Below, one piece after another: positions 4,416 to 20,338 of a stretch of DNA of 20,338 nucleotides (the stretch's first letter is position 1; each line of letters begins with the position of its first letter). Under the pieces are notes generated by a model. The model did no database searches and was not told the origin of the DNA. It worked only from the letters and a program-made list of their open reading frames with translations. Source of the DNA: Baffinella frigidus (taxonomy: Eukaryota; Cryptophyceae; Cryptomonadales; Baffinellaceae); assembly GCA_026770585.1 (NCBI GenBank), contig MU647430.1, positions 64,780-85,117 of the forward strand. The letters are read 5' to 3'. The translations under genes were made by a program, and so were the position numbers.

Positions 4416-4588
4416 TTTTCGAAGATGCGTCAATTTGGACCAACCCCTTCCTAGAACCGCCGCAAGTCAGCGAGAAACCATTAGGAAATTGGCCGCGTGA
4501 CTCTTACATGTGATTGTAATTGGACGCGACCCTGCAATTAAAGCTCCTGCCTCAGCCGGGCCTCCGGCCCGGCGGGCCTTCGGCCCGG

Positions 4589-6816: not shown

Positions 6817-6926
6817 GGGCGAAAGAGCGGGCCCGCATGTCGTGTGTCGTGCGTCCTACCCCCGACCAAAATGTCCTGGATCGTGTCCTAGAGCCGTCCG
6901 GCTCGTGCAAGCACCCTGCTTCCAAG

Positions 6927-6970
6927 TACAGGGGTACCTCGCTTAGAAGGAGCCGCGCCCCACCTACGCC
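6927..6970. mobile_element. Solo left arm of the CAGGGGTACCTCG family
   Basis: TACAGGGGTACCTCGCTTAG followed by about 24 bases of drifted arm. No matching right arm was found before the next copy at 6976. Confidence 0.7.
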
Positions 6971-6975
6971 CACCG

Positions 6976-7200
6976 TACAGGGGTACCTCGCTCATAAGAA
7001 ACCGCCCCACCCTAGGACCCTACAGGGGTACCTCGATTACAAGAAAACGCCTCCCCGTAGGACCCTACAGTAGGGCTATGCCTAGGGCCCTATGGTCGTC
7101 CTAGGGGGATGACGTTTTCTTGTAATCGAGGTATTCCTGTACATAGGCCTACTGTAGGGTCCCAGAGCGGGGCGCTTTCTTATGAGCGAGGTACCCCTGC
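6976..7200. mobile_element. Foldback interrupted by a second copy of its family
   Basis: Left arm 6976-7020 (TACAGGGGTACCTCGCTCAT to CTAGGACCC) and right arm 7142-7200 (CATAGGCCTACTGTAGGG to GAGCGAGGTACCCCTG) pair with each other. Between them lies another complete element. Confidence 0.8.
7021..7141. mobile_element. Inner (younger) foldback copy nested in 6976-7200
   Basis: TA + CAGGGGTACCTCGATTACAA ... TTGTAATCGAGGTATTCCTG + TA. Its arm carries GATTACAAG where most copies carry GCTCATAAG, and both of its arms share this change, so it is a distinct subfamily. Confidence 0.85.
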
Positions 7201-7217
7201 GTGACAGGTCTACTGTA

Positions 7218-7476
7218 CAGGGGTATCTGGGCCAGAACTCAAGAAACCATAACTTCAAAACACAGACCGGATTGAGGCCCCCCGTTTTCTTAATTTAGTT
7301 CCAGAGGGTTGACAATTTCTTGCGTTTAGTCGGTCGGTGTCGGTGTTCTTAAATTATTACCAGCGGATTGACTAAACGCAAGATTTAGTCAACCCTCTGG
7401 TACTAGATTAAGAAAACGGGGGGCCCACATCCGGTCTGTATTCTTAAGTTCTGGTTTCTTAGCCCAGATACCCCTG
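7218..7476. mobile_element. Longer foldback with related ends (CAGGGGTATCTGGGC)
   Basis: CAGGGGTATCTGGGCCAGAA ... GCCCAGATACCCCTG with inverted arms of about 110 bp, including CAGACCGGAT..GGGGGGCC, TTTTCTTAAT and GAGGGTTGACAA..CTTGCGTTTAGTC. TA precedes it; AA follows. The outermost bases match the other family and the interior does not. Confidence 0.85.
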
Positions 7477-7504
7477 AAGGGAGGGGTGCGGCTCCCTATG
7501 CATG

Positions 7505-7629
7505 TACAGGGGTACCTCGCTCATAAGAAACCGCCACCCCATAGGACCCTGCAGTAGGACCATACCTAGGGCCTTATGGTGGCCCTAGCTAGGGGGGGGT
7601 CGGTTTCTTGTGAGCGAGGTACCCCTGTA
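7505..7629. mobile_element. CAGGGGTACCTCG foldback, full copy
   Basis: TA + CAGGGGTACCTCGCTCATAA ... TTGTGAGCGAGGTACCCCTG + TA. A solo end (TGTAGGGGAACCTCGCTCG) follows near 7717. Positions 7740-7790 carry a few CCCTAAA units on the plus strand, and nothing else is seen up to the stop codon at 7968. Confidence 0.85.
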
Positions 7630-7967
7630 CATTGCCGCGGCGCCCGGGAATCAAGATCTTCATTACACTCACTTTCTCCCACCACCTCTCCGCTCTGCGC
7701 GTTGGACCCCCTATCGTGTAGGGGAACCTCGCTCGCACACCGCATCCCTGAACCCTAAAACCCACCACATTCCTGAACCCTAAAACGGAACGCGCACCAG
7801 CGCACCCCCGTGAGATAAGAACCCGTGCTCGCCGAAGTCAACTTTTGACCCTCGAGGTCAACTTAGCCCCTCAGCGTGCCGCGCACAGCTGTACAATACA
7901 CTCTCCTGACTCGAGAATCGTCACCCGTTTTCTTGCCCCGAGGCGGGCCCGTCAGAGACTAGCTGCC

Positions 7968-7991
7968 TCACTTCTTGTCGTCCGGTGCGAT
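7968..7991 (-). CDS. CTL last exon (IAPDDKK, stop)
   Basis: Follows CTCCTGCAG and encodes IAPDDKK then TGA. Phase 0 matches the donor after KNNQ at 9111. It is short, so it rests on phase fit, the strong acceptor and G/C-ending codons. Confidence 0.55.
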   Translation of the reverse strand: MAPDDKK

Positions 7992-10900
7992 CTGCAGGAG
8001 GCGGTAAAAGCTTTAGGGTTTAGGGTTTGGGGTTTGGGGTTTAGGGTTTAGGGTTTGGGGTTTAGGGTTTAGGGTTTAGGGTTTAGGGTTTAGGGTCTGG
8101 GGTGTAGGGTTGAGGGATTAGGGTTTAGGGTTTAGAGTGTAGGGTTCAGGGTTTTCGGTGAGGGTTCAGGGTTCAGGGTTCAGGGTTCAGGGCTCAGGGT
8201 GTAGGGTGTCGGGTGTCGGGTTCAGGGTTCAGGGTGTAGGGTGCTGCATTGAGGTTTTAGGTTTTAGGGTTTAGGGTTTAGGGTGTAGGCAGACCTGATT
8301 GATCTTGACGAAGATCGCAGATTGGAGGGACGCTCCCATCAACTAGACCTTGTCCTAAACCCTAAACCCTAAACGTCAACACTCCGAAACCCTCAACACT
8401 TTTGCAATCAACCCGAAACCCGAAACCCCTATCTAATAAACCCGAACTCCGCCACCCGAAACAAACTCCCGACCCCCGCCACCCGCAACAAAGAAAGTCG
8501 AACAAATTCTTTGGAGGGAGACCGGATTGTCTTTGACGCCGATACCCTTCTACCCCAGGGCGGCCGTGTTGGTAGTAACTAGCGTCCCTCTGCATAGGGG
8601 TACCTCGCTCACAAGAAACTGCCCTCCCCCTAGGACCACCATAGGACCCCAGGCATAGGGCTACTGTAGGGTCCTAGGAGGTGGCCCTTTCTTATCAGCG
8701 AGGTACCCCAGCAGTTCGGGTTGGGGGTTTCTGAGTGGACCTGGTTGTTCTTGACGCCCCCCAACCCCCAAACAGTAGTGAGGGTTGGGCGACCCCCAAC
8801 CCCCAACCAGTAGTGCGGGTTGGGCGACCCCCAACCCCCAACCAGTAGTGAGGGTTGGGCGACCCCCAACCCCCAACCAGTAGTGAGGGTTGGGCGACCC
8901 CCAACCCCCAACCAGTAGTGAGGGTTGGGCGACCCCCAACCCCCAACCAGTAGTGAGGGTTGGGCGACCCCCAACCCCCAACCAGTAGTGAGGGTTGGGG
9001 GTTTGTATGCAAAATTGCATAACAATGCAAGCGGTTTCTCTTGATCCTTTTAATAAGTTCATTTCTCCTGAAGGAGAGAGGAGGTCGGGTTGGGGGGTTC
9101 GGAAGGCGACCTGGTTGTTCTTGACGCCGATCGCTGCCTGGAGTGACGCCGCCATGAAGTACGGCTTGTCCTTTCCGTCATTCACCTCCTGTCACCGTTT
9201 GACGTTGCGTCAGCGTTTGAAGTTGAGAGATCAGTGTTTGTTGCACGTTTGTTTAGGGTTTAGGGTTTAGGATTTGTTGCATTTTGTTGAGGGTTTGGGG
9301 TTTGGGGTTTGGGGTTTGGGGTTTGGGGTTGAGGGTTTAGGGCTTAGGGTTTAGGGTTTAGGGTTTATTGTATTTTGTTTGGGGTTTGGGGTTTGGGGTT
9401 TGGGGTTTGGGGTTAGGGTTTTGGGTTTTTAGGGTTTTGGGTTTAGGGGATTCAGATTACGGGTTTCGGGTGTAGGGTTTGGGGGGTTAAGGGTTTGGGG
9501 TTTAGGGTTGATGGTATTGGGATAGGGTTGAGGGTTGAGGGCCAGGCGGACCACCCTTGATAGGGAGTTGTTGAGGGGGAGAAGTTTATCCGGGGAAACC
9601 TATTTGTCTTTCATTTGATGGCGACGAAATCACTACACAAATAATTTGATATTACCAACACGAACGAATCGTGTAGTAATTTCCGTCGCCACCAAACGAA
9701 AAAAAAACAGGTTTCCCCCGGGGGGATGAGAGTGGGGTGTGTGACCTGGTCGTACAAGAAGGAGAGGAACAGAATGGATTGTACCCGGGGGGGGGGGGTC
9801 AGGATTTCCGGCGCCCCGAAAAGTACAAAAATCGGGAGTTGCTAGCTGTCTTGAGGCAGCCCACGATGAAAGCACACGCAAGGCAGTCACCTCGGACAGT
9901 TGGCTTCGGCGTCCGCGTGACCGGTCACGCGGGCGTTCACGAGCCTGCCGGCGGGGCTGTTCCACGTGGGGTGAGACCTGGTCGTACAAGAAGGAGAGGA
10001 AGATGCAGTCGATGGCAGCCTCGAACGTCGAGAGGAACGATGACGCGATGAACCACGTGCAGAACGCGACCACCTGCCAATCGCCGCGCGATCAGCACAC
10101 CACCCGCGTACCCCGGTGGCTGCTAAGTGGGTACCTGCCAAGTTGTACCCGCCGCGCGATCACCACACCACCCAAGTACCCACTTAGCAACGCTACACGC
10201 TCAGCCCTGCACACTAAGCCCTTCACGCTAAGCCCTGCACGCTAAGCCCCACACGACCACCTGCCAAGTTGCACCCGCCGCGCGATCACCACACCACCCG
10301 CGAAACCCGAAACCCGAACCCTACGCCCTGGACCCTCAACCCAGTGCGCCCTCTCATTCGAGGCTGGACAATTCCTCTGTTTACCTGTCGGTTGTATGTG
10401 CACGTCCAGGTTTGTACGAGAGTTGGGCACGTGTCCACTTAGCAGCCACCGGGGTCTTCACGGATGCAGTCCATCTAAACGATTTGTACTAGAATCTTAT
10501 CCATTGCGATGGATTCCAACCGGAATTTCCCCCGAGAATCCGGGGGAAAATATCTTTGGTCGCTGCTGAGTGGACTGAGGGGGCAGGGAGGCAAAAGGGG
10601 CGCGCGAGGTGAGGAAAATGTGAGGACATGGTCCAGGACGAGCCCACCTCGGGCCAATAGGTCGACTGTAATTGGGGTACGCTCCTACACGGGCTGCACG
10701 GGGTTTCTGGAGCAGACATCGGAACTCAGCGGAAAAGGGGCGCGGAATGAGGAGGTCTCAGGTGAGGAGGGGCGCGAGATGAGGAGATAAGGGGGCGTAC
10801 AATGGGGGCCATCTGGTGGGAAAGGGGCTTACAATGATGGGTATGTGGAGGGAAAGGGCGCAAAACGAGGAGATAAAAGGGCATGCGATGAGTGCCAGGA

Positions 10901-13900
10901 GATGAGGAAAGGGGCGCAAAATGATGGTGATGCGGAGGGAAAAGGGCGTAGGGTGAGAATGATGAGTCGGGCAAGCCACGCGAGGCTAGAAGTGTGACTA
11001 TTTTAAAACAGGGGCTTTTTTACAAGTGAAGGGGGGAAAAGAAGTGTGTAGTACTTTTCACACAAATAAGGGTGCTTGGTCACGTAGCTCAAGGAATTTC
11101 TCGAGCTACGTGACCAAGCCTGCCCGTGACTGGTACTAAATTAAACAACCGCACATTTAAAATACGCCCTCTTCCAGGCTCGAGTGGGGGGGCGTACGAC
11201 GAGGGTGAGCATCGGCGGGCCAGAGGCAAGCTGGAGCTCCACCGCGTAGACAGAGCAGATGAGGTAGACGACCGTGAGGTTTGCCGCCAGGATCAACAGC
11301 TTCCCGAAGAACAGGATCACTATCTGTGTTTCAAGGGCTGGGTTGAGTCTTGGTTTATATCTATTTATCATTTTTAAAATAATATTTATTATTATATAAT
11401 AATATTTATTATTATTATTATATTAATGATCAGTGTTTAGGGTGTAGTGTTGGTTTATATATCTATTTATCATTTTAATAATAATATTTTTTATTGTTAT
11501 TATATGAATAATCTGTGTTTAGGGTATGTATTGTAGGAGGTGCAGATGAGGAATACGATCGTGAGGTTTGCCGCCAAGATGAAGAGCTTTCCGAACAAGA
11601 GGATCACAACCTGTGTTTTCGGGATGCCGGTACAGTGTCGATTTATGTATTCTTTATTTGTGTTTATTTATTTATCATTTATTTCTGTGCGAACGGGGTT
11701 TGGGGTGTAGGGTTTAGGGGTGTAGGGTTTTGGTGTTGATGGTTGGGGGTTAGGGTTGAGGGGTTCAGAGTTCAGGGGTGAGACCGAGGTTGGAGCACAG
11801 GATCGAGCTCTAGTTGTTGAGGGATACGGGTGTAGGGTTTAGGGTTTTAGGGTTCAGGGTTTTAGGGTTTGGGGTTTGGGGTTTGGGGTTTGGGGTTTGG
11901 GGTTTGGGGTTTGGGGTTTGGGGTTTGGGGTTTGGGGTTTGGGGTTTAGACCGCAGTCAGGGTTCAGGGTTTAGAACACAGAGGGTTTAGGATTTGGGGT
12001 TTCGGGTTTCGGGTTTCGGGTTTCGGGTTTCGGGTTTCGGGTTTCGGACCGCGGTGGCGTTGACGGCCGCGACACGCATGATGTTCCGCATCAGCAGCAT
12101 GAACCCTGCGAGACCGCCAAACGTTGAGGCGTTAGGCATCAGGCTTCAGGCATCAGGGTTTCGGGATAAGTGTTTAGTGTTTAGTGGTTCTTGTTTAGTG
12201 TTTTAGGTTTCTTGGTTTATGGTTTAGGGTTTATGGTTCATTTTTTATTTTTTATTGTTAGGGGGTTCGGTTCAGGGTTTGTAGTTGGGGCTGGGGCTCT
12301 GGTGACTCTCTCAAGTTGGGGCTGGGGCTTTGGTGACTCTCTCAAGTTGAGAGAGTCACCAGTTGGGGCCGTTTCAAGAAACGGCAATCGGCAACGCGCG
12401 ACATGGCTTCCGCTGCGCTTGCCTTCGGTTGGAGAAGAGCCAACGCTACACGGCACCGTCCGGGCGTGCCCACGCAGCAGCCACCGGGCGCTTCACGGAT
12501 ACAGTCCATCTAAACGATTTATACTAGAATCTTATCCACTACCCTGGAGTTCTAACCGCGTTGCCCCCGGATATCCGGGGGGGGGGGGACTCGGGGGCTG
12601 GTGAGTGGGGGTAAGGCACCTTGGAAGGCGCCCTTGCAGAAGCCGTGGCCGTGTGTCGCGGACATGATGTACGCGTTCTTGTTGATGTACCTGCCCACCC
12701 CGAAGAGCCCTTAGCGTTGAGTGTTGAGTGTTGATTGTTTGGGGTGTGGGGTGTGGGAATTGGGATTTGGGGTTTGGGGTTTGGGGTTTGGGGTTTGTGG
12801 TTTGTGGTTTGTGGTTTGTGGTTTGGGGCTTAGGGTTTAGGGTTCAGGGTTAGGGTTCAGGGTTCAGGGTTCAGGGTTCAGGGTTCAGGGTTCAGGGTTC
12901 AGGGTTTAGGGTTAGGGTTTAGGGTTTAGGGTTTAGGATTTAGGGTTTGGGGTTGGTTCTTGATGTACCTGGTGTAGGGTATCGTGTTTCGGGTTTCGGG
13001 TGTGGGGTTTGGCGGGTGAGGTGTGGGGTTTGGCGGGTTTCGGGTTTGGGGTTTGGGGTTTGGGGTTTGGGAGTGTGGGTGTGTACCCGATGAACTTCTC
13101 GAGGCACCAGAGGCAGCAGTTCACGATGCACATTATCGCCTGGTTCGCGGTTTGGGGCTTAGGGTTTAAGGTTTAGGGTTTAAGGTTTAGGGTTTGGGAT
13201 TTAGGGTTTAGGGTTTAGGGTTTAGGGTTTGGGGTTTAGATTTTAGGGTTTAGGGTTTAGGGTTTAGGGTTCAGCATGTGGAGTTTAGTGGTTAGGGTGT
13301 CGGGTTTAGGGGAAGGGTTGGAGCGCCTTGCCCGAGAGAGTCTAGGGTTTGGGTTCAGCGTTCAACGTTCAAGGTCCAGGGTTCGTATGGTCCAGGGTTT
13401 ACGATCAAGACTGCGGTTTTAGGGTTCCATTATTTGGGTGTGAGGGTGTGGGATGCAGGAACTTGGTTGTTAGGGTTTGTGATGCAGGTAGTGTTCTAGG
13501 TGCCGGGTTCCAAATCAAACAAAAGGATGGACACACGAAAGGGTGGACAGACCTTGACGGCGGGGTTGTTCTCGAGAGCCTTGGTCTTGCTCACAAAGTA
13601 GTTCATCACGATTCGGATGAACTGCACCACCGCGATGATGAACGACCTGCGGTGCGGTTTCAGGGGATAAGCTTCCACCGTGAAGGATAAGGCTCCACAC
13701 GGTGGACTACGAGGCAACAATTTGAACATAAATATCGCTCAAGTTGACTTGTTTGAGCCCTTTTCAGGTAAAAAGTTAGTCACGCAACCCCCGGATTCCG
13801 GGGGTCGTGGTCTTGCTCGCAAAGTAGTTAATTGCGATGCGGATGAACTGCACCACCGCAATGATCAACTATCTGTGAGCGCCTTGGGGGTTACAACTCT

Positions 13901-16900
13901 CAACAATCATGTATTCCCCACAAGTCTAGAACCCTTACCCTATACCCTCGACGCCGGCAACCCCAAACTCTGATAAACCCGCAACGCTAAACCCAAGACG
14001 CCCGAAACCCGAAACCCTAGACGCGAAACCAAGAGGTACGGTTTGAGGATTGGGGGGTTAGGGTTTAGGGTTTAGGGTTTAGGGTTTAGGGTTTAGGGTT
14101 TAGGGTCTCGGGTTTCGGGTTTGGGGTTTAGGGTTTAGGGTTTAGGATTTATGGTTTATAGTTTATAGTTTCGGGTTTCGGGTTTAAGGTTCAGGGTTTA
14201 TGGTTTATGGTTTAGGGTTTAGGGTTTAGATTTGAGGACGACGTGGAGTTGGGTTTGAGGTTTTGGGTTTTGGGTTTGGGTTGAGGATTTGGGATTCGGG
14301 GTGAGGGTTTCGGATAAACTGCACCACCGCGGTGAATGATCTTGAGGGTTTTGGGTTGTGGAGATTGGGTTTAGGTTTCAAGAATTAGGACTCAGGGCTT
14401 AGCGTTAAAAGAATTTTAGATTCAGGGTGAAAACTATAGGGTCGGATGGGTTCAGGGTGCAGGGTTCAGGGTTCAGGGTCCAGGGTTCAGGAATTAGGGG
14501 TTAGGGTTCTGATTCAGGAAGAAGGTTTCGGGTTTCGGGTTTCGGGTTTCGGGTTTATGGTTTATGGTTTCGGGTTTCGGGTTTAAGTTTCATGGTTTAT
14601 GGTTTAGGGTTTAGGGTTTATGGTTTAGGGTTTCAGGTTGAGGGTTTCGGGGTTTGTGAGTACCCGACGAGGACGGTGCCGAGGTTGTAGCGCACGTACC
14701 GGTATGCCGAGCCTGTTCTCGGGGAGGGGAGGGTAAGCCGAAGCCAGACTCGGGGAACGTGTTCAGCGGTTGGGGTCTGCCAGAGGGTTCAGGATTGCGG
14801 GGTTGGGGGACAAGCCTGTGTTCGGCAAGTTTTGGTTTTGGGTTTCGGGTTTCGGGTTTCGGGTTTAAGGTTTCGGGTCTCAGGTTTCGGGTCTCAGGTT
14901 TCGGGTTTCGGGTTTAAGGTTTCGGGTCTCGGGTTTCGGGTTTGGAGGGGCCAGGCCTGTGATCGGGAATCTTGGCAGAGCCATCTTGTCCAGTGTCCAA
15001 TACCTGAATTAGAGTTTAGGGTTGAGGGTTTAGGGCTTAGGGTTTAGGGTTTAGGGTTTAGGGTTTAGGGTTTAGGGTTTAGGGTTCAGGGTTGACGGTC
15101 TGGGTTTTGGGGTTTAGGTTTCGTGCAGCCAGATTCGGGTGTCGGGTGTCGGGTATTGGGTGTTGGGTTTGGGGTTTGGGGTTTGGGGTTTGGGGTTTGG
15201 GGTTTGGGGTTTGGGGTTTGGGGTGTCGGGTTTCGGGTGTGGGGTACCAAGTGGCGACGGCGCCGGCAATAACATAGTAGCCCGACGACGTTGTGAAGTT
15301 GTTGGTCCACAGGAACATGAAGAGGTGCGCCAGGCAGAGATAGTTGTACGTCGTGCCGTCCAGGGGAATCGGGATGAACGACCTGCCGTGGGGGTTGAGG
15401 GTTTGGTCGTTTGGGGTTAAGTGGTGAGGATTTCGGGTTTCGGGTTTCGGGATTGGGGTTTCGGGTTTCAGGGGTTTTCAGTTTTGGGTTGAGGGTTTGC
15501 GGTTATAACTTGAAGCGATCAAGGGTTTGGGGTTAAGGAAGCGATACCGTAGTACTACCAACACGGCCGCCATGTATGCACCCACACAGAGGCTGTGTCT
15601 GAGCAGGAACTGGAGTTTAGGGGGTCACCGCCAGTTGTCGATAGTGGGAAGCATGTCGAACTTGACGTCGGGGTCCGGGAGTGCAGGGTTATACATTGCA
15701 ACGATCCATGATGTGGGGTGTCGGGGATTCCCTCCGTTACTAGGAGTAACACTGAATTTCATCTCGGAAGATAACTGAATCAGTTCCCTATTTAGCTTTT
15801 TCTTTTAATTAGGGGGCCTAACTAAATTTACTATGCCATACCTAACTTCTCCTATTCAACCTCCTATTGAAAAGGAACTGATGCAGTCATCCTCCGAGAT
15901 GAAGTCACCGCCAGTTGTCGATGGTGGATTCGACGCGTGTCGAACAAATCCGTGCCGATAGGCTCAGCGGGGCTTATATACTATCAACGAAGAGAACATA
16001 TGTTGCTGTTCGGGTCCGGGAGGGTTGTAACTTGCAACAATCAAAGCCTCAGGGTTTAGGGTGTAGGGTTCAGGGTTAAGGGTGTCGGGGGGTACCGCCA
16101 GTTATCGATGGTGGGAAGGGTGTCGAACTTGAGGTCAGCGTCCGGCAGCTCGCGCATGTCCGCCAGCCCCGAGGCTTTCATCTGCCAGGGAGGGGTGTGT
16201 CGGACACAGTCAAGGGTGTGTTCGACACTCTGGAGGGTGTTGTAGGCACACGTAAGGGTATGTTTATCGCATATCCGCGAGGCCCGAGGCTTTCATCTGC
16301 CAGGGAAGGGTGTGTTAGACACAGTCAAGGGTGTGTTAGACACAGAGAAGGGTGTTTTAGACATACTGCCTGGTATGGAAGAGTGTGTTAGATACACGGA
16401 AGGGTGTTGTAGGCACACATGAGGGTGTGTTGGCGACACTTGGTATGGTGTGTCGGTGACTTGTGTATCACTTGGTAGTGTTGGTGACTTGTGTATTGGT
16501 GTGTTGGTGACTTGTGTATTGGTGTGTTGGTGACTTGTGTATTACTCAACTCAAGGATCAAGGACCTGTATCGAGAGTAATAAAGAAGAAGAAGCAGTCG
16601 GTGACGGGGAGAAACCTCAGAGTCTATTCGAAAACCATTCGGTATTTGAACCTGTGAGGAAACGTATCCGAAAAAGGTATTCGAGATTCGATATTCGATA
16701 GAATGCGTCGAATCGAGACTCTTGTGACGGGGGGGAACCTCAGAGTCCTTCTGCTTGGTCAGGATGGGCAGGGACTTCGCGGTCGTGCCTAGCACGTTGC
16801 ATTTCCGCACCTGCGCGTTGAGGGTTTGGGGCTTAGCATTGAAGGCTTCGGGTTTCGGATGTCGGAACCCTGAACAAAGTTCCGAAACCCTGAACAAAAT

Positions 16901-19900
16901 TCAGGGATTCGGGTTTCAGGTGTCAGGGTTAGGGGTGAGGGGTGGGGGAGGGGGGGGCGGACCTACAACTTCACTTACCTTGAGGTAAGTGCAGTCGTAG
17001 TATTAAAACTTTGAAGTTTCGGGTTCCGGGTTTCGGGTTTCTAGTTTTGGGTTCAAGGTGGGGGGAACAGACCGCCTCGAGGTACGTGAAGTTATAGTAT
17101 GAAAGGACGTGCTCGCTTTTCAGCCTCCAGCCCCACGACGTGTTCCCCACCGCCCCGCCTGCAAGCGTTGAGGCCTTAGCCTTGAGGGTGCCTCCTTAGA
17201 GGTTTAGGGTTTGGGATTTGGGGTTTGGGGTTTAGGGCTTGGGGTTTAGGGTTTGGGGTTTGGGGTTTAGGGGTCAGGGTTTAGGGTTTAGGGTTTAGGG
17301 GTTAAGGTTCAGGGTTTAGGGTTTAGGGTTTGGGGATGAGGGTTCGCGGGCGAGGGTTTCGGGTTGAGGGATGAGGGTTTGGGGATGAGGGTTCAGGGCT
17401 GTAGCATTTGGGGTTTCGGGTTTCGGGTTTCGGGTTTAGGGTTTAGGGTTCAGGGAGCGACCTGAGAGGTCCCATGCGCCGCAGGTTCCGTTGCTCGTGC
17501 ACCTTCGGATGTTCGCTGCGACCCCTAGGTCCCTACGGGTGTCCTACCTCAGGGTCCTACGGGACGAATACCGGACGCCCCCGGATCCGAAATAAGCTGT
17601 TTCGGGTTGCTGGTGGTAGGTTGAATGCGAAAAGCTTACGTTAACGGACCCCTTAAGTCCCTCGTCAACGTGGGCTTGCCAGCTCTAAAAAGATTTTAAA
17701 AGCGATTTCAGGACTTTTAAAGCCCAAGAATGTTTTCCATTACAAATTTTGTACCAAAGTTACTACTCCGTTAACGTAAGCTTTTTGCATGAGGTTGTAG
17801 GGTGACCTGTGAGGTCCCATGCGCCGCAGGTTCCGTTGCTCGTGCACCCTCGGATGTTCGCTGCGACCCGTAGGTCCCTACGGGTGTCCTACCGTAGGGT
17901 CCTACGGGACGAATACCCGACGCCCCCGGATCCGAAATAAGCTGTTTCGGGTTGCTGGTGGTGGGTTGTAGGGTGACCTGTGAGGTCCCATGCGCCGCAG
18001 GTGCCGTTGCTCGTGCACCTTCGGATCTTCGCTGCGATCCTGTTTCGGTCGTCAGGGTGTAGGGTTCAGGGTGTAGGGTGTAGGGTGTAGGGTGTAGGGT
18101 TTAGGGTTTGGGGTTTAGGCTTTAGGGTTTGGGGTTTAGGGTTTGGGGTTGAGGAGAAAGGGTTGAGGGTGTAGGGTGTGGGGCTTAGGGAGGGGGCTGA
18201 CGTGATGGTGCCAGGCCCGAGGACTTGCCCCTCCTGTATCCACAGCTTGATCTCGCCTGTCCAGCGTTGAGGGTTTCGGGTTTAGGGTTTAGTGTTTAGG
18301 GTTTGCGGTTTGGGTTTTGGGGTTTTGGGTCTGGGGTCTGGGGTCTGGGGTCTGGGGTCTAGGGTTTGGGGTTTGGATTTTGGGGTGTGGGGTTTAGGGC
18401 AAACGGGATTTAGGGTTTAAGTAGACTGAAGGTTTCGTGTGAAATGCATTTAGGGTTTGGGTTTTGGATTCAGAGTTTGGGGTTTAGGGTTGCAAGTTTC
18501 GGGTTTAATGTTTAGGGTTTAGGGTTCAGGGTTTAGGGTGCAGGGTTCATGTAAACGGAAGATTTCAAGTAAATGTGAAGATTTCAAGTAAAACGGAAGA
18601 TTTCAAGTAAATGTTCCGTTCATGTAAACGGAAGATTTGTTTGGGGTTTAGGGTTTGGGGTTTAGGATCTGACCAGCAGTGGCGTTCCATGAGATCGTTC
18701 CGTTGGACATCCCCGATGGTGTCGTGAAAAAGTCCTGCGTTTGTGGTTTGTGGTTTGTGGTTTGGGGTTGGGGGTTTGGGGTTTGGGGTTTGGGGTTTGG
18801 GGTGTGAGGTGTGGGGTTTGGGGTTTGGGGTTTGGGGTTTGGGGTGTGGGGTTTAGGGTTGAGGGGTTAGTTCAAATCTGCGGCAATAGTGTCAAGAGAA
18901 GGGAGCCGGGTTCAAAGAAGAGGAGAGGGGAGGAGGCGAGAGGCGATGGGAGAGGGTAGGGGAGAAGGGGTGGGAGAGGGTAGGGAGGAGAGGAAAGGAG
19001 AGGAGAGTGGTGATGAGGTGAGAGGAGGTGAGAGAACAGACGAGAAGAGGCAAGGGGGAGCGCATTGGCGAGGACAGATAGGGAGATACGAGGGTAGATG
19101 AGGGCTGCGGAGAGGGTGGAGGAGGGTTTAGGGTTTAGGGTTTAGGGTTTAGGGTTTAGGGTTTAGGGTTTAGGGTTCAGGATTTAGGGTTCAGGGTTTA
19201 GGGTTGAGGGTTTAGGATTCAGGGTTGAGGGTTGTTTAGTGTTAGGGTTTAGGGTTTAGGGTTTAGGGTTTAGGGTTTAGGGTTTAGGGTTTAGGGTTTA
19301 GGGTTTAGGGTTTAGGGTTCAGGGTTTAGGGTTTAGTGTTGATATCGGGACCTTGTTGCGCGTGTCATCAGAGCAGTTGTTGTTCGAGAGCACTCCCAGA
19401 CACCCTCCAATCGGCATCGCCACCGCCCTGCTTCCAGCTTTCGGGTTTGCGGTCTGGAATGCCAAGGTGCGGGGTGTAGGGTGTGCAGGATTGCACATTC
19501 CGGGTTCCAGGTTTCAGGGTGTGGGGTGCATGGTTGCGGGTTCCAGGTTCCGGGTTTGAGGCCCGGGTTTCACAAGAGCACCCCGAGGTACCCCCCAATA
19601 GGCAGCGCCACCACCCTGGTTCCGGGTTTGGGGTGTGGGGTGTGGGGTTTGGGGTTTGGGGTTTGGGGTTTGGGGTTTGGGGTTTGGGGTTTGGGGTTTG
19701 GAGTTTGGGTGTTGGGGTCTGGGGTCTGGGGTTTGGGGTTTGGTGTTTGGTGTTTGGTGTTTGGTGTTTGGTGTTTGGTGTTTGGTGTTTGGTGTTTGGT
19801 GTTGTTTGGGAAGTGGTTTTTGGGGTTTGGGGTTTGGGGTTTGGGGTTTGGGATTCAGGTTTTGGGGTTCAGGATTTAGCGTTTAGGGTTTACCAGGCTC

Positions 19901-20097
19901 AAGAGTAGACCGAAGAGTAAATGTTTGGGTTTCGGGTTTCGGGTTTCGGTTTTCGGTTTTCGGTTTTTGGTTTTCGGGTGTAGGGTGAAGGGTGTGTTTA
20001 GGGTGGGGGTTTCGTGTTTGGGGACGCACGACGAAGTGTTGGTGTTCCCCGTACACTTGTCCGTGTTGAAAATCGCGTCATACTTGCACGATGTACC
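7968..20097 (-). CDS. Choline transporter-like protein (CTL/SLC44 family), 3' part, 19 exons
   Basis: A multi-pass membrane protein of the CTL/SLC44 family, whose studied members carry choline and related amines across plasma or organelle membranes. Reading right to left, exons give an extracellular loop with many Cys and NxS/T sequons, then LFMFLWTNNF, VIAGAVATW, RYVRYNLGTVLVG, SFIIAVVQFIRIVMNY, CCLWCLEKFIGYINKNAYIM, FCKGAFQGFMLLMRNIMRVA, FGKLLILAANLTVVYL, FIASSFLSTFEAAIDC, EVNDGKDKPYFM and a short tail. These match the conserved core of the family (for example human CTL2) in order and nearly in length. Phases fit at every junction from 19427 to the stop if three GC donors are allowed; one join (20026 to 19427) is unresolved. 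The first membrane helices must lie beyond 20338. The loop before LFMFLWTNNF is about 220 residues, much longer than I recall for human CTLs. It is convergent with the left gene. Substrate is not provable here. Confidence 0.9.
8010..8288. repeat. TTTAGGG-type array in the last CTL intron
   Basis: Heptamers TTTAGGG, TTTGGGG, TTCAGGG and GTGTAGGG in runs, ending just before the degenerate exon copy at 8291. On the gene's sense strand these are C-rich. Confidence 0.95.
8291..8355 (-). pseudogene. Degenerate copy of exon EVNDGKDKPYFM
   Basis: The minus strand reads DKV-stop-LMGASLQSAIFVKINQ, aligned to DKPYFMAASLQAAIGVKNNQ of the exon at 9111-9188. It has an in-frame stop and keeps the CAG/GTC donor junction. 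It lies downstream of the intact exon. Confidence 0.8.
8355..8470. repeat. Opposite-polarity heptamer tract (CCCTAAA/CCCGAAA)
   Basis: CCCTAAA and CCCGAAA units on the plus strand, inverted relative to the arrays on both sides. One of the few polarity reversals inside the gene. Confidence 0.85.
8517..8545 (-). pseudogene. Short donor-edge copy of the 9111-9188 exon
   Basis: The minus strand reads IGVKDNPVSLQ, matching IGVKNNQ followed by the donor. The CAG before the donor has mutated (AATCCGGTCTCC). Confidence 0.65.
8594..8711. mobile_element. CAGGGGTACCTCG foldback inside the last CTL intron
   Basis: ATAGGGGTACCTCGCTCACAAG ends against TTATCAGCGAGGTACCCCA, with CTAGGACC / GGTCCTAGG inner arms. 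End bases have drifted (CATAGGGG for TACAGGGG). Confidence 0.8.
8712..8757 (-). pseudogene. Donor-edge copy of the 9111-9188 exon, with intron flank
   Basis: The minus strand reads GVKNNQ then GTCCACTCAG. The similarity continues into the adjoining intron (GTTCGGGTTGGGGGTT here, GGTCGGGTTGGGGGGTT at the intact exon), so the copied segment spans the splice junction. Confidence 0.8.
8755..9003. repeat. 35-bp minisatellite, about seven copies
   Basis: The unit from GGGCGACCCCCAACCCCCAA to CAGTAGTGAGGGTT has exact period 35 (unit positions 8790, 8825, 8860, 8895, 8930, 8965). Because 35 is not a multiple of 3 and the unit lacks minus-strand stops, it makes three long overlapping false ORFs of the LLVGGWGSPNPHY type. 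Confidence 0.97.
9111..9188 (-). CDS. CTL exon: EVNDGKDKPYFM... (26 codons)
   Basis: Phase 0 on both sides; acceptor GTGACAG, donor CAG/GTCGCC. It encodes EVNDGKDKPYFMAASLQAAI and GVKNNQ. The ND-G-x-x-KPYFM stretch after the last membrane helix is typical of CTL proteins. Confidence 0.9.
9251..9545. repeat. TTTAGGG/TTTGGGG arrays, CTL intron
   Basis: Runs of TTTAGGG and TTTGGGG (five or more identical units at 9292-9325 and 9379-9412), then mixed units to 9545. Confidence 0.95.
9590..9722. mobile_element. MITE-like foldback
   Basis: CCGGGGAAACCTATTTGTCT..GATGGCGACGAAATCACTACAC on the left pairs with GTGTAGTAATTTCCGTCGCC..ACAGGTTTCCCCCGG on the right. Arms are about 50 bp, imperfect. Confidence 0.8.
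9732..9778 (-). pseudogene. Donor-edge copy of the 9978-10073 exon
   Basis: The plus strand GACCTGGTCGTACAAGAAGG then AGAGGAA repeats 9975-10002 exactly. The minus strand reads LFLSFLYDQ then GTCACAC. Intron bases past the donor are also copied (GTGGGGTG). Confidence 0.85.
9978..10073 (-). CDS. CTL exon: VVAFCTWFIASSFLSTFEAA... (32 codons)
   Basis: Phase 0/0; acceptor TTGGCAG, donor CAG/GTCTCA. It encodes the final membrane helix and the family signature around STFEAAIDCIFLSFLYDQ (compare the usual F/YxxxxDTLFLCFLED). The reading frame runs on past the donor to 9633, but that extension is arginine-rich and unlike the family, so splicing is preferred. Confidence 0.92.
10067..10302. repeat. 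Three direct copies of the exon 9978-10073 acceptor region
   Basis: ACCTGCCAA..CCGCCGCGCGATCA.CACACCACCC occurs at 10072-10106 (real acceptor), 10133-10175 and 10260-10302. The third copy also keeps the first seven exon bases (GTGGTCG on the minus strand). On the sense strand the extra copies lie upstream. Confidence 0.85.
10111..10455. repeat. Perfect 20-bp inverted repeat pair
   Basis: CCCCGGTGGCTGCTAAGTGG at 10111-10130 is the exact complement of 10436-10455. It encloses one acceptor copy and a short CCCGAAA tract (10300-10345) of reversed polarity. Confidence 0.85.
10443..10555. repeat. Dispersed module, copy 1 (second copy at 12477-12590)
   Basis: CAGCCACCGGG..CTTCACGGAT..CAGTCCATCTAAACGATTT..TACTAGAATCTTATCCA, then a CCCCCG..CGGGGG hairpin, occurs here and at 12477-12590. 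Part of it (AGTCCATCTAAACG) also occurs near 3593. Probably an old mobile element. Confidence 0.75.
10730..10980. repeat. Purine-rich imperfect minisatellite
   Basis: Irregular units such as GAAAGGGGCGCAAAATGATG and GAGGAGATAAGGGGGCG. The plus strand is nearly all purine plus T. I see no coding sequence. Confidence 0.7.
11074..11119. repeat. Perfect 17-bp hairpin
   Basis: GCTTGGTCACGTAGCTC (11074-11090) and its exact complement (11103-11119) around a 12-base loop, in a CTL intron. Confidence 0.85.
11198..11323 (-). CDS. CTL exon: IVILFFGKLLILAANL... (42 codons)
   Basis: Phase 0/0; acceptor AACACAG, donor GTC/GTACGC. It encodes a membrane helix with FGKLLILAANLTVVYLICSV and the short loop ELQLASGPPMLTLV. 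FLGKLLIVG is the corresponding family motif. Confidence 0.92.
11352..11695. repeat. Tandem AT-rich block linked to exon duplication
   Basis: The block TTGGTTTATATCTATTTATC followed by TTTATTATTA runs at 11352-11440, again at 11451-11515, and as a diverged third copy at about 11640-11690. The third copy is preceded by an exon fragment (11540-11610), as the first is preceded by the intact exon. AT content is far above the rest of the window. Confidence 0.85.
11540..11610 (-). pseudogene. Truncated copy of exon IVILFFGKLLILAANL
   Basis: Acceptor ACACAG is kept. The frame reads VVILLFGKLFILAANLTIVF then LICT, against IVILFFGKLLILAANLTVVY and LICS. It loses similarity at 11540 with no donor. Changes are conservative, so the duplicate may have been coding for a time, or gene conversion acts. 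It lies upstream of the intact exon. Confidence 0.85.
11698..12048. repeat. Heptamer arrays in blocks: TTTGGGG then TTTCGGG
   Basis: About eleven near-identical TTTGGGG units at 11868-11947, then seven TTTCGGG units at 11998-12046 running up to the exon's donor at 12049. Each block is uniform and differs from the next. Confidence 0.95.
12050..12105 (-). CDS. CTL exon: FMLLMRNIMRVAAVNATA (18 codons)
   Basis: Starts phase 1 after GTCTCGCAG and ends phase 0 at GCG/GTCCGA. FLLMRNIIRVAVL is one of the best conserved CTL stretches. Confidence 0.93.
12285..12390. repeat. 34-bp tandem pair plus hairpins
   Basis: AGTTGGGGCTGGGGCT then TGGTGACTCTCTCA occurs twice (about 12290 and 12316). The second copy folds with GAGAGAGTCACCA (to 12361). 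A second small hairpin, CCGTTTCAAGAAACGG, follows. Confidence 0.8.
12477..12590. repeat. Dispersed module, copy 2
   Basis: Matches 10443-10555 over most of its length in the same orientation and ends at the same CCCCCGGATATCCGGGGG-type hairpin. Confidence 0.75.
12620..12690 (-). CDS. CTL exon: YINKNAYIMSATHGHGFCKG... (23 codons)
   Basis: One base completes GGG with the previous exon; it ends phase 1 (donor CCAAG/GTGCCT). The family motif NRNAYIM..I.G..FC appears as NKNAYIMSATHGHGFC. Confidence 0.92.
12715..13080. repeat. Heptamer arrays, several uniform blocks
   Basis: Blocks of TTTGGGG, TTTGTGG, TTCAGGG (about eight units at 12850-12905), TTTAGGG and TTTGGGG/GGCGGG. They are interrupted at 12954 by a short exon-edge copy. 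Confidence 0.95.
12955..12970 (-). pseudogene. Acceptor-edge copy of exon YINKNAYIM
   Basis: The minus strand reads ACCAG then GTACATCAAGAAC, against GGGCAG then GTACATCAACAAGAAC of the exon at 12690. It lies upstream of the intact exon on the sense strand. Short. Confidence 0.6.
13087..13139 (-). CDS. CTL exon: AIMCIVNCCLWCLEKFI (17 codons)
   Basis: Phase 0 start after GAACCAG; ends two bases into a codon at GG/GTACAC. CCLWCLEKF is the most distinctive CTL motif and was the first anchor for this gene. Confidence 0.95.
13150..13285. repeat. TTTAGGG-type array
   Basis: Mostly TTTAGGG and TTTAAGG units, CTL intron. Confidence 0.95.
13553..13646 (-). CDS. CTL exon: SFIIAVVQFIRIVMNYFVSK... (31 codons)
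   Basis: One base completes the Gly of LVG; ends phase 0 at AAG/GTCTGT. A membrane helix then SKTKALENNPAVK, matching GS.I..VQFIR..L.Y...K.K..EN of the family. Confidence 0.93.
13809..13878 (-). pseudogene. Copy of exon SFIIAVVQFIR with in-frame stop
   Basis: The minus strand reads LIIAVVQFIRIAINYFASKT after TCACAG, but the first codon in the required phase is TAG. Most differences are conservative. A CCCCCGGATTCCGGGGG hairpin follows the loss of similarity. It lies upstream of the intact exon. Confidence 0.88.
13920..14030. repeat. Reversed-polarity heptamer tract
   Basis: CCCTATA, CCCAAAC, CCCGAAA and CCCTAGA units on the plus strand, against the usual orientation in this gene. Confidence 0.8.
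14046..14305. repeat. TTTAGGG array, CTL intron
   Basis: Runs of TTTAGGG (14056-14105), then TTTCGGG, TTTATGG and mixed units. Confidence 0.95.
14311..14342 (-). pseudogene. Second, short copy of exon SFIIAVVQFIR
   Basis: The minus strand reads SFTAVVQFIR-like sequence (TTCACCGCGGTGGTGCAGTT), lacking one ATC codon. It is embedded between heptamer arrays. Confidence 0.75.
14455..14660. repeat. TTCAGGG, TTTCGGG and TTTATGG blocks
   Basis: Uniform sub-blocks as in the other introns; the array ends at the exon donor (14663). Confidence 0.93.
14664..14712 (-). CDS. CTL exon: SAYRYVRYNLGTVLV (15 codons)
   Basis: Starts with two bases after GAACAG and ends two bases into a codon at GG/GTACTC. RYVRYNLGTVLVG matches R.LRYHLGT..G of the family. 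Confidence 0.92.
14830..14945. repeat. TTTCGGG/TCTCAGG array
   Basis: Uniform TTTCGGG units with TTTAAGG and TCTCAGG variants. Confidence 0.93.
14957..15003 (-). CDS. CTL exon: YWTLDKMALPRFPIT (15 codons)
   Basis: One base completes Trp with the previous exon; acceptor AATTCAG. It ends one base into a codon at ACAG/GCCTGG, so a GC donor is needed. It fits the short cytosolic stretch YY..RDK..LP..P of CTL proteins. Confidence 0.85.
15010..15100. repeat. TTTAGGG array
   Basis: Mostly exact TTTAGGG units, CTL intron. Confidence 0.95.
15140..15246. repeat. TTTGGGG array reaching the exon donor
   Basis: About nine TTTGGGG units (15164-15225) with GTGTCGG variants at both sides. The array touches the donor of exon 15248-15382. 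Confidence 0.95.
15248..15382 (-). CDS. CTL exon: TYNYLCLAHLFMFLWTNNF...VIAGAVAT (44 codons)
   Basis: Acceptor CACGGCAG, one base then 44 codons, donor TG/GTACCC. It encodes the end of the extracellular loop (SFIPIPLDGT), a helix (LCLAHLFMFLWTNNF) and YYVIAGAVATW, matching H..G..W...F..A....IAGAV..YY of the family. Confidence 0.94.
15621..15709 (-). pseudogene. Donor-side copy A of exon MKASGLADMREL
   Basis: The minus strand reads LPDPDVKFDMLPTIDNWR then GTGACC, against LPDADLKFDTLPTIDNWR of the intact exon at 16096. No acceptor. Lies downstream of the intact exon. Confidence 0.88.
15758..15903. mobile_element. MITE-like element, 146 bp
   Basis: TTCATCTCGGAAGATAACTG ... CATCCTCCGAGATGAA inverted ends, with ACTGAATCAGTTCC / GGAACTGATGCAGT inside. 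It sits directly beside exon copy B. The interior is AT-rich. Confidence 0.8.
15904..16045 (-). pseudogene. Donor-side copy B of exon MKASGLADMREL, disrupted
   Basis: The minus strand keeps STIDNWR then GTGAC. About 60 bases of unrelated sequence (15950-16010) interrupt it before GTCCGGGAGGGTTGTAACTT, which matches copy A. Confidence 0.75.
16096..16181 (-). CDS. CTL exon: MKASGLADMRELPDADLKFD... (28 codons)
   Basis: Phase 0 start after CCCTGGCAG; ends two bases into Arg at CG/GTACCC. It encodes hydrophilic, acidic extracellular loop sequence ending FDTLPTIDNW. Confidence 0.88.
16197..16550. repeat. GGGTGTGTTAGACACAG repeat field
   Basis: Irregular repeats of AAGGGTGTGTTAGACACAG (16197-16440), then three to four copies of TGGTGACTTGTGTATTGGTG (16450-16545). 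The unit is part palindrome (GTGT..ACAC). Confidence 0.88.
16268..16345 (-). pseudogene. Acceptor-side copy of exon MKASGLADMREL
   Basis: The minus strand reads CCTGGCAG then MKASGLADMR before losing similarity. The copied segment continues into the intron and repeats with period 115 (16175 and 16290). Lies upstream of the intact exon. Confidence 0.88.
16602..16628 (-). pseudogene. Donor-edge copy of the 16739-16810 exon
   Basis: The minus strand GACTCTGAG then GTTTCTCCCCGTCAC matches GACTCTGAG then GTTCCCCCCCGTCAC at the intact exon. Lies downstream. Confidence 0.75.
16739..16810 (-). CDS. CTL exon: VRKCNVLGTTAKSLPILTKQ... (24 codons)
   Basis: Phase 0/0; acceptor CGCGCAG, donor GAG/GTTCCC. 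Loop sequence with one Cys; G/C-ending codons dominate. Its place in the gene rests on phase and position, not on family similarity. Confidence 0.75.
16971..17008. pseudogene. Inverted pair of copies of the exon 17076-17158 donor edge
   Basis: The plus strand CTACAACTTCACTTACCTTG and the minus strand CTACGACTGCACTTACCTCA form a palindrome. Both resemble CTATAACTTCACGTACCTCG at the end of the intact exon. On the minus strand it reads YYDCTYLK then GTAAGT. Confidence 0.75.
17076..17158 (-). CDS. CTL exon: GAVGNTSWGWRLKSEHVLSY... (27 codons)
   Basis: Two bases then 27 codons after CTTGCAG, ending NFTYLE at GAG/GCGGTC (a GC donor). Sequons NTS and NFT support an extracellular position. Confidence 0.75.
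17195..17455. repeat. TTTAGGG/TTTGGGG array
   Basis: Mixed uniform blocks, ending in TTTCGGG and TTTAGGG units just before the triplicated exon region. Confidence 0.95.
17462..17515 (-). CDS. CTL loop exon, tandem copy 3 of 3 in transcript order (NIRRCTSNGTCGAWDLS)
   Basis: 54 nt, acceptor GTCGCAG, donor CTCAG/GTCGC. Starts with two bases and ends with one, so any number of copies keeps frame. Two Cys and an NGT sequon fit the extracellular loop. This phase joins correctly to GAVGNTSW at 17158. Confidence 0.65.
17624..17791. mobile_element. 168-bp MITE with AGGTTG target duplication
   Basis: ATGCGAAAAGCTTACGTTAA on the left and its near-complement TTAACGTAAGCTTTTTGCAT on the right. AGGTTG flanks both sides (17618-17623, 17792-17797). 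The neighbouring repeat unit gives the empty site (GTGGGTTGTAGGGTGACC). The interior includes ACTTTTAAAGCCC and no ORF. Confidence 0.93.
17807..17860 (-). CDS. CTL loop exon, tandem copy 2 of 3
   Basis: Same 54-nt exon; one base change makes RR into RG, and S becomes T before the donor ACAG/GTCACC. Splice sites intact. Confidence 0.6.
17978..18031 (-). CDS. CTL loop exon, tandem copy 1 of 3
   Basis: Same 54-nt exon (KIRRCTSNGTCGAWDLT); one synonymous GGA/GGC change. Acceptor GATCGCAG and donor ACAG/GTCACC are intact. It is the first copy the spliceosome would meet. Confidence 0.6.
18053..18180. repeat. GTGTAGGG/TTTAGGG array
   Basis: Uniform GTGTAGGG units, then TTTAGGG and TTTGGGG units. 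Confidence 0.93.
18212..18256 (-). CDS. CTL loop exon: EIKLWIQEGQVLGP
   Basis: Acceptor CTGGACAG, two bases complete the Gly after NATA. With a GC donor (CCTG/GCACC) the phase fits the 54-nt exon. A GT donor ten bases later (ATCAC/GTCAGC, end 18202) gives a phase that does not fit. The donor is therefore uncertain. Confidence 0.6.
18268..18540. repeat. Mixed heptamer array
   Basis: TTTAGGG, TCTGGGG (four units near 18329-18358), TTTGGGG and single odd units; no exon seen. Confidence 0.9.
18548..18640. repeat. AAACGGAAGATTTCAAGT tandem repeat
   Basis: Four to five irregular copies of AAACGGAAGATTTCAAGTAA, some with a CATGT lead, between heptamer arrays. Confidence 0.9.
18674..18734 (-). CDS. 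CTL loop exon: DFFTTPSGMSNGTISWNATA (20 codons)
   Basis: Phase 0 start after AACGCAG; ends one base into a codon at GCTG/GTCAGA. Two sequons (NGT, NAT). Phases join both neighbours. Confidence 0.75.
18740..18870. repeat. TTTGTGG/TTTGGGG array
   Basis: Three TTTGTGG units then long TTTGGGG blocks, starting directly at the exon's acceptor. Confidence 0.95.
18890..19120. repeat. Polypurine tract (GAGAGG-rich)
   Basis: About 230 bases of almost pure A/G on the plus strand, hence polypyrimidine on the sense strand of the CTL gene. No coding signal. Confidence 0.9.
19122..19345. repeat. TTTAGGG array, long exact runs
   Basis: Two runs of about seven and ten exact TTTAGGG units, with TTCAGGG and GTTGAGGG between. 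Ends close to the exon donor at 19351. Confidence 0.97.
19352..19427 (-). CDS. CTL loop exon: AVAMPIGGCLGVLSNNNCSD... (25 codons)
   Basis: One base then 25 codons after GAAGCAG; ends phase 0 at AAG/GTCCCG. The frame is supported by comparison with its copy at 19577, whose differences fall mostly at third positions or are conservative. It needs two bases from an upstream exon that I could not place. Confidence 0.7.
19577..19626 (-). pseudogene. Acceptor-side copy of the AVAMPIGG exon
   Basis: The minus strand reads VVALPIGGYLGVLL after AACCAG, then a stop, against AVAMPIGGCLGVLS. Lies upstream of the intact exon. Confidence 0.82.
19625..19905. repeat. TTTGGGG and TTTGGTG arrays
   Basis: About nine TTTGGGG units, then nine uniform TTTGGTG units (19739-19803), then TTTGGGG again. 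Frames through it read GVWGLGF and are not genes. Confidence 0.97.
19921..20010. repeat. TTTCGGG/TTTTCGG array
   Basis: TTTCGGG units changing to TTTTCGG, then GTGTAGGG-like units. Confidence 0.92.
20026..20097 (-). CDS. CTL loop exon: GTSCKYDAIFNTDKCTGNTN... (24 codons)
   Basis: Phase 0/0; acceptor TCAACCAG, donor TGC/GTCCCC. Three Cys and the sequon NTS fit the loop. It does not join in phase to the exon at 19427, so an unseen exon lies between, or one boundary is wrong. Confidence 0.65.
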
Positions 20098-20107
20098 CTG
20101 GTTGAAT

Positions 20108-20338
20108 TTTGAGGGTTTGGGGTTTAGGGGTTGGGTTTGGGGATTGGGGTTTGACCTTTATAGAGGAAAAGCTGGTTTAGTGCATTGGGTACAGGGTTTC
20201 GGATTCATGGGGTTTGTTTAGGGGTCAAGGTTTAGGGTTTAGGGTTTAGGGTTTAGGGTTTAGGGTTTAGGGCTTAGGGTTTAGGGTTTAGGGTTTAGGG
20301 TTTAGGGTTTAGGGTTTAGGGTTTAGGGTTTAGGGTTT
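20108..20338. repeat. TTTAGGG array at the right window edge
   Basis: Mixed units to 20221 (with a non-repeat island at 20150-20210), then about 16 nearly exact TTTAGGG units to the edge. G-strand orientation would suit a right-hand telomere, but the CTL gene needs more exons beyond, so an intron array is likelier. Confidence 0.95.

Follow-up and report, generated by a model that had tools for sequence, protein, structure and literature searches.

Near-strict coupling between the orientation of telomere-like intron arrays and the direction of transcription in Baffinella frigidus

Results

A choline transporter-like gene with heptamer arrays in its introns

We analysed a window of 20,338 bases from the cryptophyte Baffinella frigidus, positions 64780-85117 of contig C1004 in a genome of 382,457,362 bases and 1,364 contigs. 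On its minus strand lies a gene of the choline transporter-like family (SLC44/CTL), whose exons in the window extend from near position 20173 to the stop codon (7968-7970; Table 1). The introns of this gene hold arrays of telomere-like heptamers, TTTAGGG and its variants, and there is a near-strict coupling between the orientation of these simple repeats and the direction of transcription, the sense strand being the C-rich one (CCCTAAA). The first-pass annotation of the window had recognised the gene and its arrays. It had seen neither this polarity nor the broken exon copies in the introns, nor that the gene runs past the right edge of the window and that the arrays are spread over many contigs.

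The gene model comes from our own spliced-alignment script, which permits only GT/GC-AG borders and has a slight preference for a pyrimidine at -3. It comprises 20 exons and 19 introns: 18 exons clearly similar to the homologue P0001 and two tiny ones at the ends, of which exon 1 (18 bases) is doubtful and the last exon (24 bases) offers few residues for comparison. The minus strand and the short exons agree with the first-pass annotation, whose count of nineteen exons does not. Eighteen introns have GT-AG borders and one has GC-AG; these dinucleotides are no independent evidence, because the script permits nothing else. Stronger evidence for the model is provided by the reading frame, which is kept throughout (P0001 from residue 418 aligns in one unbroken frame, with 361 of 467 columns identical), and by the CAG acceptors present in all 19 introns.

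The spliced protein of 464 residues matches PF04515 (the Choline_transpo profile proposed earlier as a check) with 213.2 bits, against a cut-off of 26.9 (E 7.3e-63), and a crude joining of the minus-strand exon translations matches it at E 4.3e-51. By sequence, it also matches the solved structures 7wwb and 9qu3 (choline transporter-like protein 1) at E about 5e-44 over residues 184-444. We found at least 328 similar proteins with a search that scored only the 7,996 candidates having most words in common; the best of the 120 listed is P0001 (882 residues, source 'lgn', E 6e-201). P0002 is a sequence of MMETSP0047, which we take to be a Chroomonas strain, and P0005 (taxid 77928, organism name beginning 'Proteo') presumably belongs to Proteomonas, both cryptophytes. 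Profile, structures, and alignment bear out the SLC44/CTL assignment, which is correct as far as similarity can tell, and the locus looks like a working gene. Scans of the window against Rfam (gathering threshold) and for tRNAs gave no match.

N-terminal parts of P0001, P0002, P0005, and P0010 match on the same strand at 4399-4485, 2260-2349, 1185-1289, and 29-157 of a second locus of C1004 (L021, from position 95118). The gene therefore covers about 27 kb, of which the window has the 3′ part only. A CTL paralogue with few heptamers lies on contig C38 (about 1978-9001 of L022, plus strand).

Arrays of period 7 make up 3,558 of the 10,793 intron bases (33%) according to Tandem Repeats Finder and 24% under a stricter definition (strict arrays). 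The latter occur in 16 of the 19 introns and cover 0% of the exons; in the main direction, strict arrays are lacking from introns 8, 15, and 17. Base shuffling leaves a strict cover of 0.2% (largest of 50: 0.5%), and the arrays are therefore not due to chance. The commonest of the 362 units are TTTAGGG (115), TTTGGGG (87), TTTCGGG (41), and TTCAGGG (29), confirming the four types listed by the first-pass annotation. Of 275 pairs of adjacent units, 55% are identical, when 18.5% would be expected (2,000 permutations, maximum 26.5%), so the arrays have been homogenised locally, in blocks. The earlier claim that nearly all intervening sequence is heptameric was overstated, since the remainder of the introns lies outside such arrays. 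Introns built from heptamers exist (strict arrays make up 65% of intron 5 and 69% of intron 10), but not all introns are of this kind. Similarly, arrays do approach the splice sites, and 8 of the 19 introns have a strict array that begins 3-20 bases from the donor, but the two junctions quoted as examples (12048/12049 and 15246/15247) are both one base off the borders found (12049/12050 and 15247/15248). Intron lengths range from 58 to 1124 bases.

Two further repeats were noted in these introns. One is a 35-base tandem repeat in intron 19 (8758-8999; 6.9 copies, 98% matches), with CCCCCAA runs opposite to the rest of the gene. The other, not based on heptamers, is a 117-base repeat common to introns 17 (10430-10546) and 15 (12465-12581), with 81% identity.

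Array orientation follows the coding strand

Strict arrays that are C-rich on the sense strand cover 22.5% of the intron bases of the CTL gene, against 1.6% in the other direction. The upstream part of the gene (L021, 1-4485) shows the same, with 196 bp C-rich on the sense strand and 14 bp opposite. Arrays are nearly absent on both sides of the gene: past the most 5′ of the exons found, 5,515 bases are free of arrays in either direction, and the 6.4 kb downstream (1524-7967) has at most 0.2%. Motifs for G-quadruplexes cover 22.4% of the introns on the antisense strand and 0.75% on the sense strand, as selection on the RNA would leave them; a strand-biased birth of the arrays would look alike.

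The left end of the window (1-1523) lies outside the CTL gene; 17.0% of its bases are in arrays C-rich on the plus strand, versus 1.4% opposite. It may hold a second, plus-strand gene. The candidate gave no Pfam match up to E 5, and its best two matches in the PDB (E about 0.7) were unconvincing; because no homologue was found for it, these arrays can only be called consistent with the polarity rule.

To place arrays relative to genes elsewhere in the genome, we used protein kinases. Scoring 145 of 217 candidates yielded 108 kinase exon matches of known strand. We sampled 20 gaps between successive exons of the same gene, 601-base slices of 13 other gaps plus one whole gap, and the 451-base flanks of 20 other exons on their higher-coordinate side, which we assumed to be intragenic. 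This amounts to 54 stretches and 26,288 bases, none masked. Arrays were found in 25 stretches (9/20, 7/14, and 9/20 in the three sets) and were lacking in 29. By majority, every one of the 25 is C-rich on the sense strand (9/9, 7/7, 9/9), with 1,108 versus 0, 763 versus 56, and 751 versus 0 bases in the C-rich and G-rich directions, that is 2,622 versus 56 bp in total. These stretches represent 24 genes, one of them twice; six are in plus-strand and 19 in minus-strand genes. The agreement of 24 genes out of 24 has a binomial p of about 1.2e-7, and the genes with at least one match above the Pfam cut-off are C-rich on the sense strand in 18 of 18 cases.

A blind sample of 15 regions chosen by position alone (2 did not exist; 6 of the other 13 readable, 34,409 bases) consists of strict arrays to 8.9%. 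Among the arrays of at least 20 bases, 63 of 66 run in the majority direction of their locus, which none of 20,000 permutations reached. Leaving out L021, which belongs to the same CTL gene, the count is 58 of 61, and the three exceptions are all in L025. A minus-strand gene recognised by eye in L029 also fits the rule.

One way to obtain such a pattern is biased generation, in which transcription exposes or breaks one strand, so that arrays begin or lengthen only where the G-rich strand serves as template. A directional process of this sort easily yields near-total polarity (25/25), and arrays that nearly vanish past the ends of the CTL gene would agree with it. The small minority of G-rich-sense bases beside kinase exons (56 of 2,678) fits it less well, and block homogenisation, which shows that arrays grow, is silent on the strand. 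We consider this explanation a serious possibility, though not a probable one.

The arrays are not a single telomeric block

The first-pass annotation had placed the gene within interstitial telomeric sequence. The genome sample led us to reject a single telomeric block: arrays are a regular component of the blind sample, stand beside kinase exons of 24 genes, and fade in the 6.4 kb downstream and 5.5 kb upstream of the CTL gene. We sampled 20 contig ends, of which 13 were readable. None is a clean telomere, although contig C20 ends within an array of G-rich variants that points in the telomere direction. Among the ends sampled, those at L073 and L081 are inside heptamer arrays, the former in the wrong direction for a telomere, the latter in the right direction with variant units. 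Since contigs end inside arrays, breaks in the assembly may fall there.

Interstitial telomeric sequences are widely described, and could be produced by telomerase insertion at double-strand breaks or derive from a block near a chromosome end. Here too, tandem telomere-type units stand at internal sites, TTTAGGG is the commonest unit (115/362), and C20 ends as a telomere might. Yet insertion at breaks predicts no link to the coding strand, and we find 25 of 25 stretches C-rich on the sense strand (gene-independent orientation is our own expectation for break repair, not a published definition). The variant units also form their own blocks, the arrays are on many contigs, and a clean telomere is absent from all 13 readable contig ends. 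A classical interstitial origin is thus very improbable.

Broken exon copies in neighbouring introns

We located copies of the 20 exons within the window by similarity search and read their splice sides by eye. Seven exons have a total of 12 same-strand partial copies, all in neighbouring introns (18-75 bases, 76-100% identical). Seven copies run through the donor, four begin at the acceptor, and the remaining one is an internal fragment. No copy amounts to a whole exon flanked by its two original splice sites. Five further weak rows (E 0.003 to 0.05) are far away or on the opposite strand, and a control with reversed exons gave 2 hits in all. Further apparent exon copies are present in L021. 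One-sided copies of this sort fit tandem duplications with one end in the exon and the other in the repeat-rich intron. Mutually exclusive exons were considered and rejected, because each of the 12 copies is incomplete, contains a stop, or lacks one of the original splice sites.

Broken exon copies and weak donors might also be expected if the gene were a decayed copy in which arrays are tolerated because it is dead. However, its exons are open in one continuous frame, with the identity to P0001 given above (361/467 columns), and the array-bearing kinase genes would need to be dead as well, which makes this account hardly credible.

Splice signals and the question of mobile introns

The motif CTCAAC occurs within the last 29 bases before the CAG in 8 of 19 introns, against 1.0 expected from interior windows (0 of 2,000 draws reach 8). 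We take this as a lead only, because six motifs were tried after looking. By eye, two acceptors in L021 directly follow heptamer units, one of them being CCCTAAACCCTAG/G. Several CTL introns have like 3′ ends, CCCTCAACGC..CAG. In the model of the C38 paralogue, CTGAC precedes the acceptor in four introns. A search for the U1 snRNA gave no match anywhere, its controls being equally silent.

Acceptors placed right after heptamer units and like 3′ ends would be expected if the arrays were carried by an introner-like mobile family, inserting in one orientation with ready-made splice sites. The many short exons would agree with this, as would the comparison with the C38 paralogue, where most compared intron positions differ (by eye); of the C38 introns placed alike by several queries, only one shares place and phase with an intron of the window gene. 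We searched the CTL gene for families of similar introns with common ends, the mark of introners, and found none among 20 of the 21 direct-repeat families (minimum 40 bases), in which one non-heptamer repeat is common to different introns. Together with intron lengths from 58 to 1124 bases, this makes a mobile family improbable.

Other features of the window and heptamer tracts elsewhere

A palindromic element carries GGGGTACCTCGCTCATAAGAAA at both ends, inverted, in pairs that span about 90-220 bases. There are 16 end matches (at most 3 mismatches) in the window, against 0 expected: 14 left of the CTL stop codon and 2 in intron 19. It looks like a miniature inverted-repeat element. We found no exact match to it in 109 other loci, many of them short or masked, and none in viral contigs. 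The same side of the window contains a GC-rich open reading frame of 150 codons (5824-6276, plus strand; best Pfam E 0.72), with an AATAAA motif further on, and inverted copies of the motif TTTCTCGCTGACTTGCGGCGG, seen by eye at 2217-2510 and 4456-4482.

The read-through peptide of one array matches 259 proteins at E 0.01. Among the best 120, 86 have at least two signature matches and 34 have fewer; 11 of these 120 carry the name of Baffinella frigidus, and the other listed matches are mostly unnamed metagenome proteins, a few with an adjoining Pfam domain (P0160, PF00071). Because the query was a sense-type peptide, this search is no test of polarity in Baffinella. Some matches fit badly, namely two entries named Neisseria gonorrhoeae and one named Siphonobacter; P0158 and P0167 carry short 7-residue repeats. 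In P0158, an entry named as a glycosyltransferase of N. gonorrhoeae, the repeat is NTKHQTP, like the read-through peptide, and it stands as a separate heptamer-like tract in a coding gene. Matches to TTTCGGG in viral contigs (14 loci) are short isolated tracts with a strict cover of 0.3-1.9%, and were judged unrelated.

Table 1. Coordinates of the features in the window. The exon listing is separate from the spliced alignment.
Feature	Positions	Strand	Evidence
CTL exon 1 (doubtful, 18 bases)	20156..20173	-	spliced alignment, weak
CTL exon 2	20030..20097	-	spliced alignment, exon listing
CTL exon 3	19352..19427	-	spliced alignment, exon listing
CTL exon 4	18674..18734	-	spliced alignment, exon listing
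CTL exon 5	18202..18256	-	spliced alignment, exon listing
CTL exon 6	17978..18039	-	spliced alignment (exon listing held its two copies, not the exon itself)
CTL exon 7	17073..17158	-	spliced alignment, exon listing
CTL exon 8	16739..16810	-	spliced alignment, exon listing
CTL exon 9	16096..16181	-	spliced alignment, exon listing
CTL exon 10	15248..15382	-	spliced alignment, exon listing
CTL exon 11, followed by the sole GC donor	14957..15003	-	spliced alignment, exon listing
CTL exon 12	14664..14712	-	spliced alignment, exon listing
CTL exon 13	13553..13646	-	spliced alignment, exon listing
CTL exon 14	13087..13139	-	spliced alignment, exon listing
CTL exon 15	12620..12690	-	spliced alignment, exon listing
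CTL exon 16	12050..12105	-	spliced alignment, exon listing
CTL exon 17	11198..11323	-	spliced alignment, exon listing
CTL exon 18	9978..10073	-	spliced alignment, exon listing
CTL exon 19	9111..9188	-	spliced alignment, exon listing
CTL last exon (24 bases), stop codon 7968-7970	7968..7991	-	spliced alignment
Intron 10, purest array intron (69% strict heptamer arrays)	15004..15247	-	strict array count
Intron 5 (65% strict heptamer arrays)	18040..18201	-	strict array count
Array in intron 16, mainly TTTGGGG (C-rich on sense)	11861..11944	+	strict array count; units read from sequence
Array in intron 16, mainly TTTCGGG, 8 bases from donor	11993..12041	+	strict array count; units read from sequence
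Array in intron 3, mainly TTTAGGG	19248..19331	+	strict array count; units read from sequence
Exon 3, partial copy with acceptor	19575..19615	-	
Exon 6 copy (95%), donor kept, original acceptor lost	17462..17521	-	
Exon 6 copy (95%), donor kept, original acceptor lost	17807..17866	-	
Exon 9, copy of 3′ part with donor	15629..15681	-	
Exon 9, 19-base copy of 3′ end with donor (E 0.003)	15909..15927	-	
Exon 9, copy of 5′ third with acceptor	16268..16296	-	
Exon 13, copy of most of the exon, in-frame stop (TAG) at exon start	13799..13869	-	
Exon 13, internal fragment	14309..14335	-	
Exon 17, copy of 5′ part	11533..11607	-	
Exon 18, copy of 3′ end with donor	9746..9769	-	
Exon 19, decayed copy with stop (also in the exon listing)	8295..8356	-	
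Exon 19, 18-base copy of 3′ end with donor (E 0.001)	8741..8758	-	
CCCCAAA-type array, C-rich on +, outside CTL gene	1..109	+	period-7 arrays
CCCTAAA-type array, C-rich on +, outside CTL gene	1248..1436	+	period-7 arrays
Candidate exon of second gene	169..290	+	by eye; no homologue found
Candidate last exon of second gene, TAG at end	1446..1522	+	by eye; no homologue found
Stretch downstream of CTL gene, arrays 0.0% and 0.2% on the two strands	1524..7967		strict array count
Palindromic element sites	938-1053, 1581-1693, 1844, 2028-2140, 6724-6812, 6980-7197, 7509-7625, 8597-8709		

Discussion

The reading we favour, and think somewhat probable, is that tandem duplication makes the arrays grow locally, with broken exon copies as a by-product, and that the arrays are kept where the pre-mRNA is C-rich, those with a G-rich sense strand being removed by selection. 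Short telomere-like seeds would lengthen in situ through slippage or tandem duplication, and this growth would at times take in the edge of an exon, leaving exon debris. With the orientation found, the transcript carries the C-rich strand (CCCUAAA, CCCCAAA, CCCGAAA) and would therefore be free of G-quadruplex runs. Arrays of the opposite orientation would be eliminated by selection, as their RNA, with one GGG run after another, would give rise to G-quadruplexes and R-loops that interfere with splicing. The C-rich arrays would be harmless, and could supply acceptor and branch-like motifs near intron ends.

A bolder version would make the telomere-like heptamer a genome-wide, strand-locked intron-building material of this cryptophyte lineage: C-rich arrays would grow on the sense strand of transcribed genes and nowhere else, provide acceptors and branch sites out of their own units, create or lengthen introns, and shuffle exon fragments in the process. 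We put it forward tentatively and think it rather unlikely in full.

Several observations weigh against duplication followed by selection. Two arrays (1-109 and 1248-1436) are not part of the CTL gene, and should the second gene prove unreal, arrays would also occur outside genes. There is a minority of G-rich-sense arrays, in the window mainly in introns 12, 17, and 19 (13% of intron 19), and in the kinase stretches amounting to 56 bp (L057, L068), so the rule is strong rather than absolute. The C38 paralogue agrees weakly, with 6 short C-rich-sense and 3 G-rich-sense runs (at least 14 bases, within the gene). Six of the 24 array-bearing kinase genes rest on Pfam matches below the cut-off, and polarity beyond the CTL genes covers one family, the kinases, and the L029 gene assigned by eye. 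The donors share 4 to 6 of 9 positions with the U1 consensus CAG/GTRAGT, a poor fit, and have a C-rich stretch behind the GT. Branch-site use and the exon joins are read from the sequence. Finally, selection and strand-biased mutation would predict like patterns here.

In one organism, one can test whether G-rich repeats are purged from introns on account of RNA structure or do not arise there at all, and in what way simple repeats lengthen introns and copy pieces of exons. This would be a new case of intron growth, and of the limits to the sequence that introns may carry; if heptamers also supply splice sites, introns would have a way to grow that needs no transposons. It also brings a warning, since in genomes of this kind the predicted proteins may include false peptides derived from intron repeats, as seems to be the case for several Baffinella entries.

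Among titles and abstract openings, we found no report of strand-polarised telomere-like arrays in cryptophyte introns, which does not establish their absence from print. The genome of B. frigidus CCMP2293 was described with an assembly of 534.5 Mb, against 382 Mb here, and with 41.1% repeats (Table 1 of that paper, PMC9756366), and the main text of the paper has no occurrence of 'intron' or 'telomer'. Likewise, 'cryptophyt' and 'telomer' do not occur in the main text of a paper on introners (PMC9860276).

The protein itself resembles other members of the SLC44/CTL family (PF04515), with a conserved core above the curated cut-off and a C-terminal end as in P0001, P0002, and P0005. We noticed nothing unusual in it; the novelty sits in the introns. 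With the introner elements of Micromonas, Aureococcus, and Amoebophrya, as described in PMC7789003 and PMC9860276, these introns share the presence of repetitive sequence in many introns, but no common intron family was found in the CTL gene and its repeat is a 7-base tandem. With interstitial telomeric sequences of the TTTAGGG type, they share the unit and the tandem form, whereas here the orientation follows the coding strand in all sampled kinase stretches that carry arrays, and many variant units form homogeneous blocks. Guillardia theta and Goniomonas avonlea are also cryptomonads rich in introns, with mean lengths of 106 and 171 bases (PMC6260743), whereas in B. frigidus a single gene has introns from 58 to 1124 bases.

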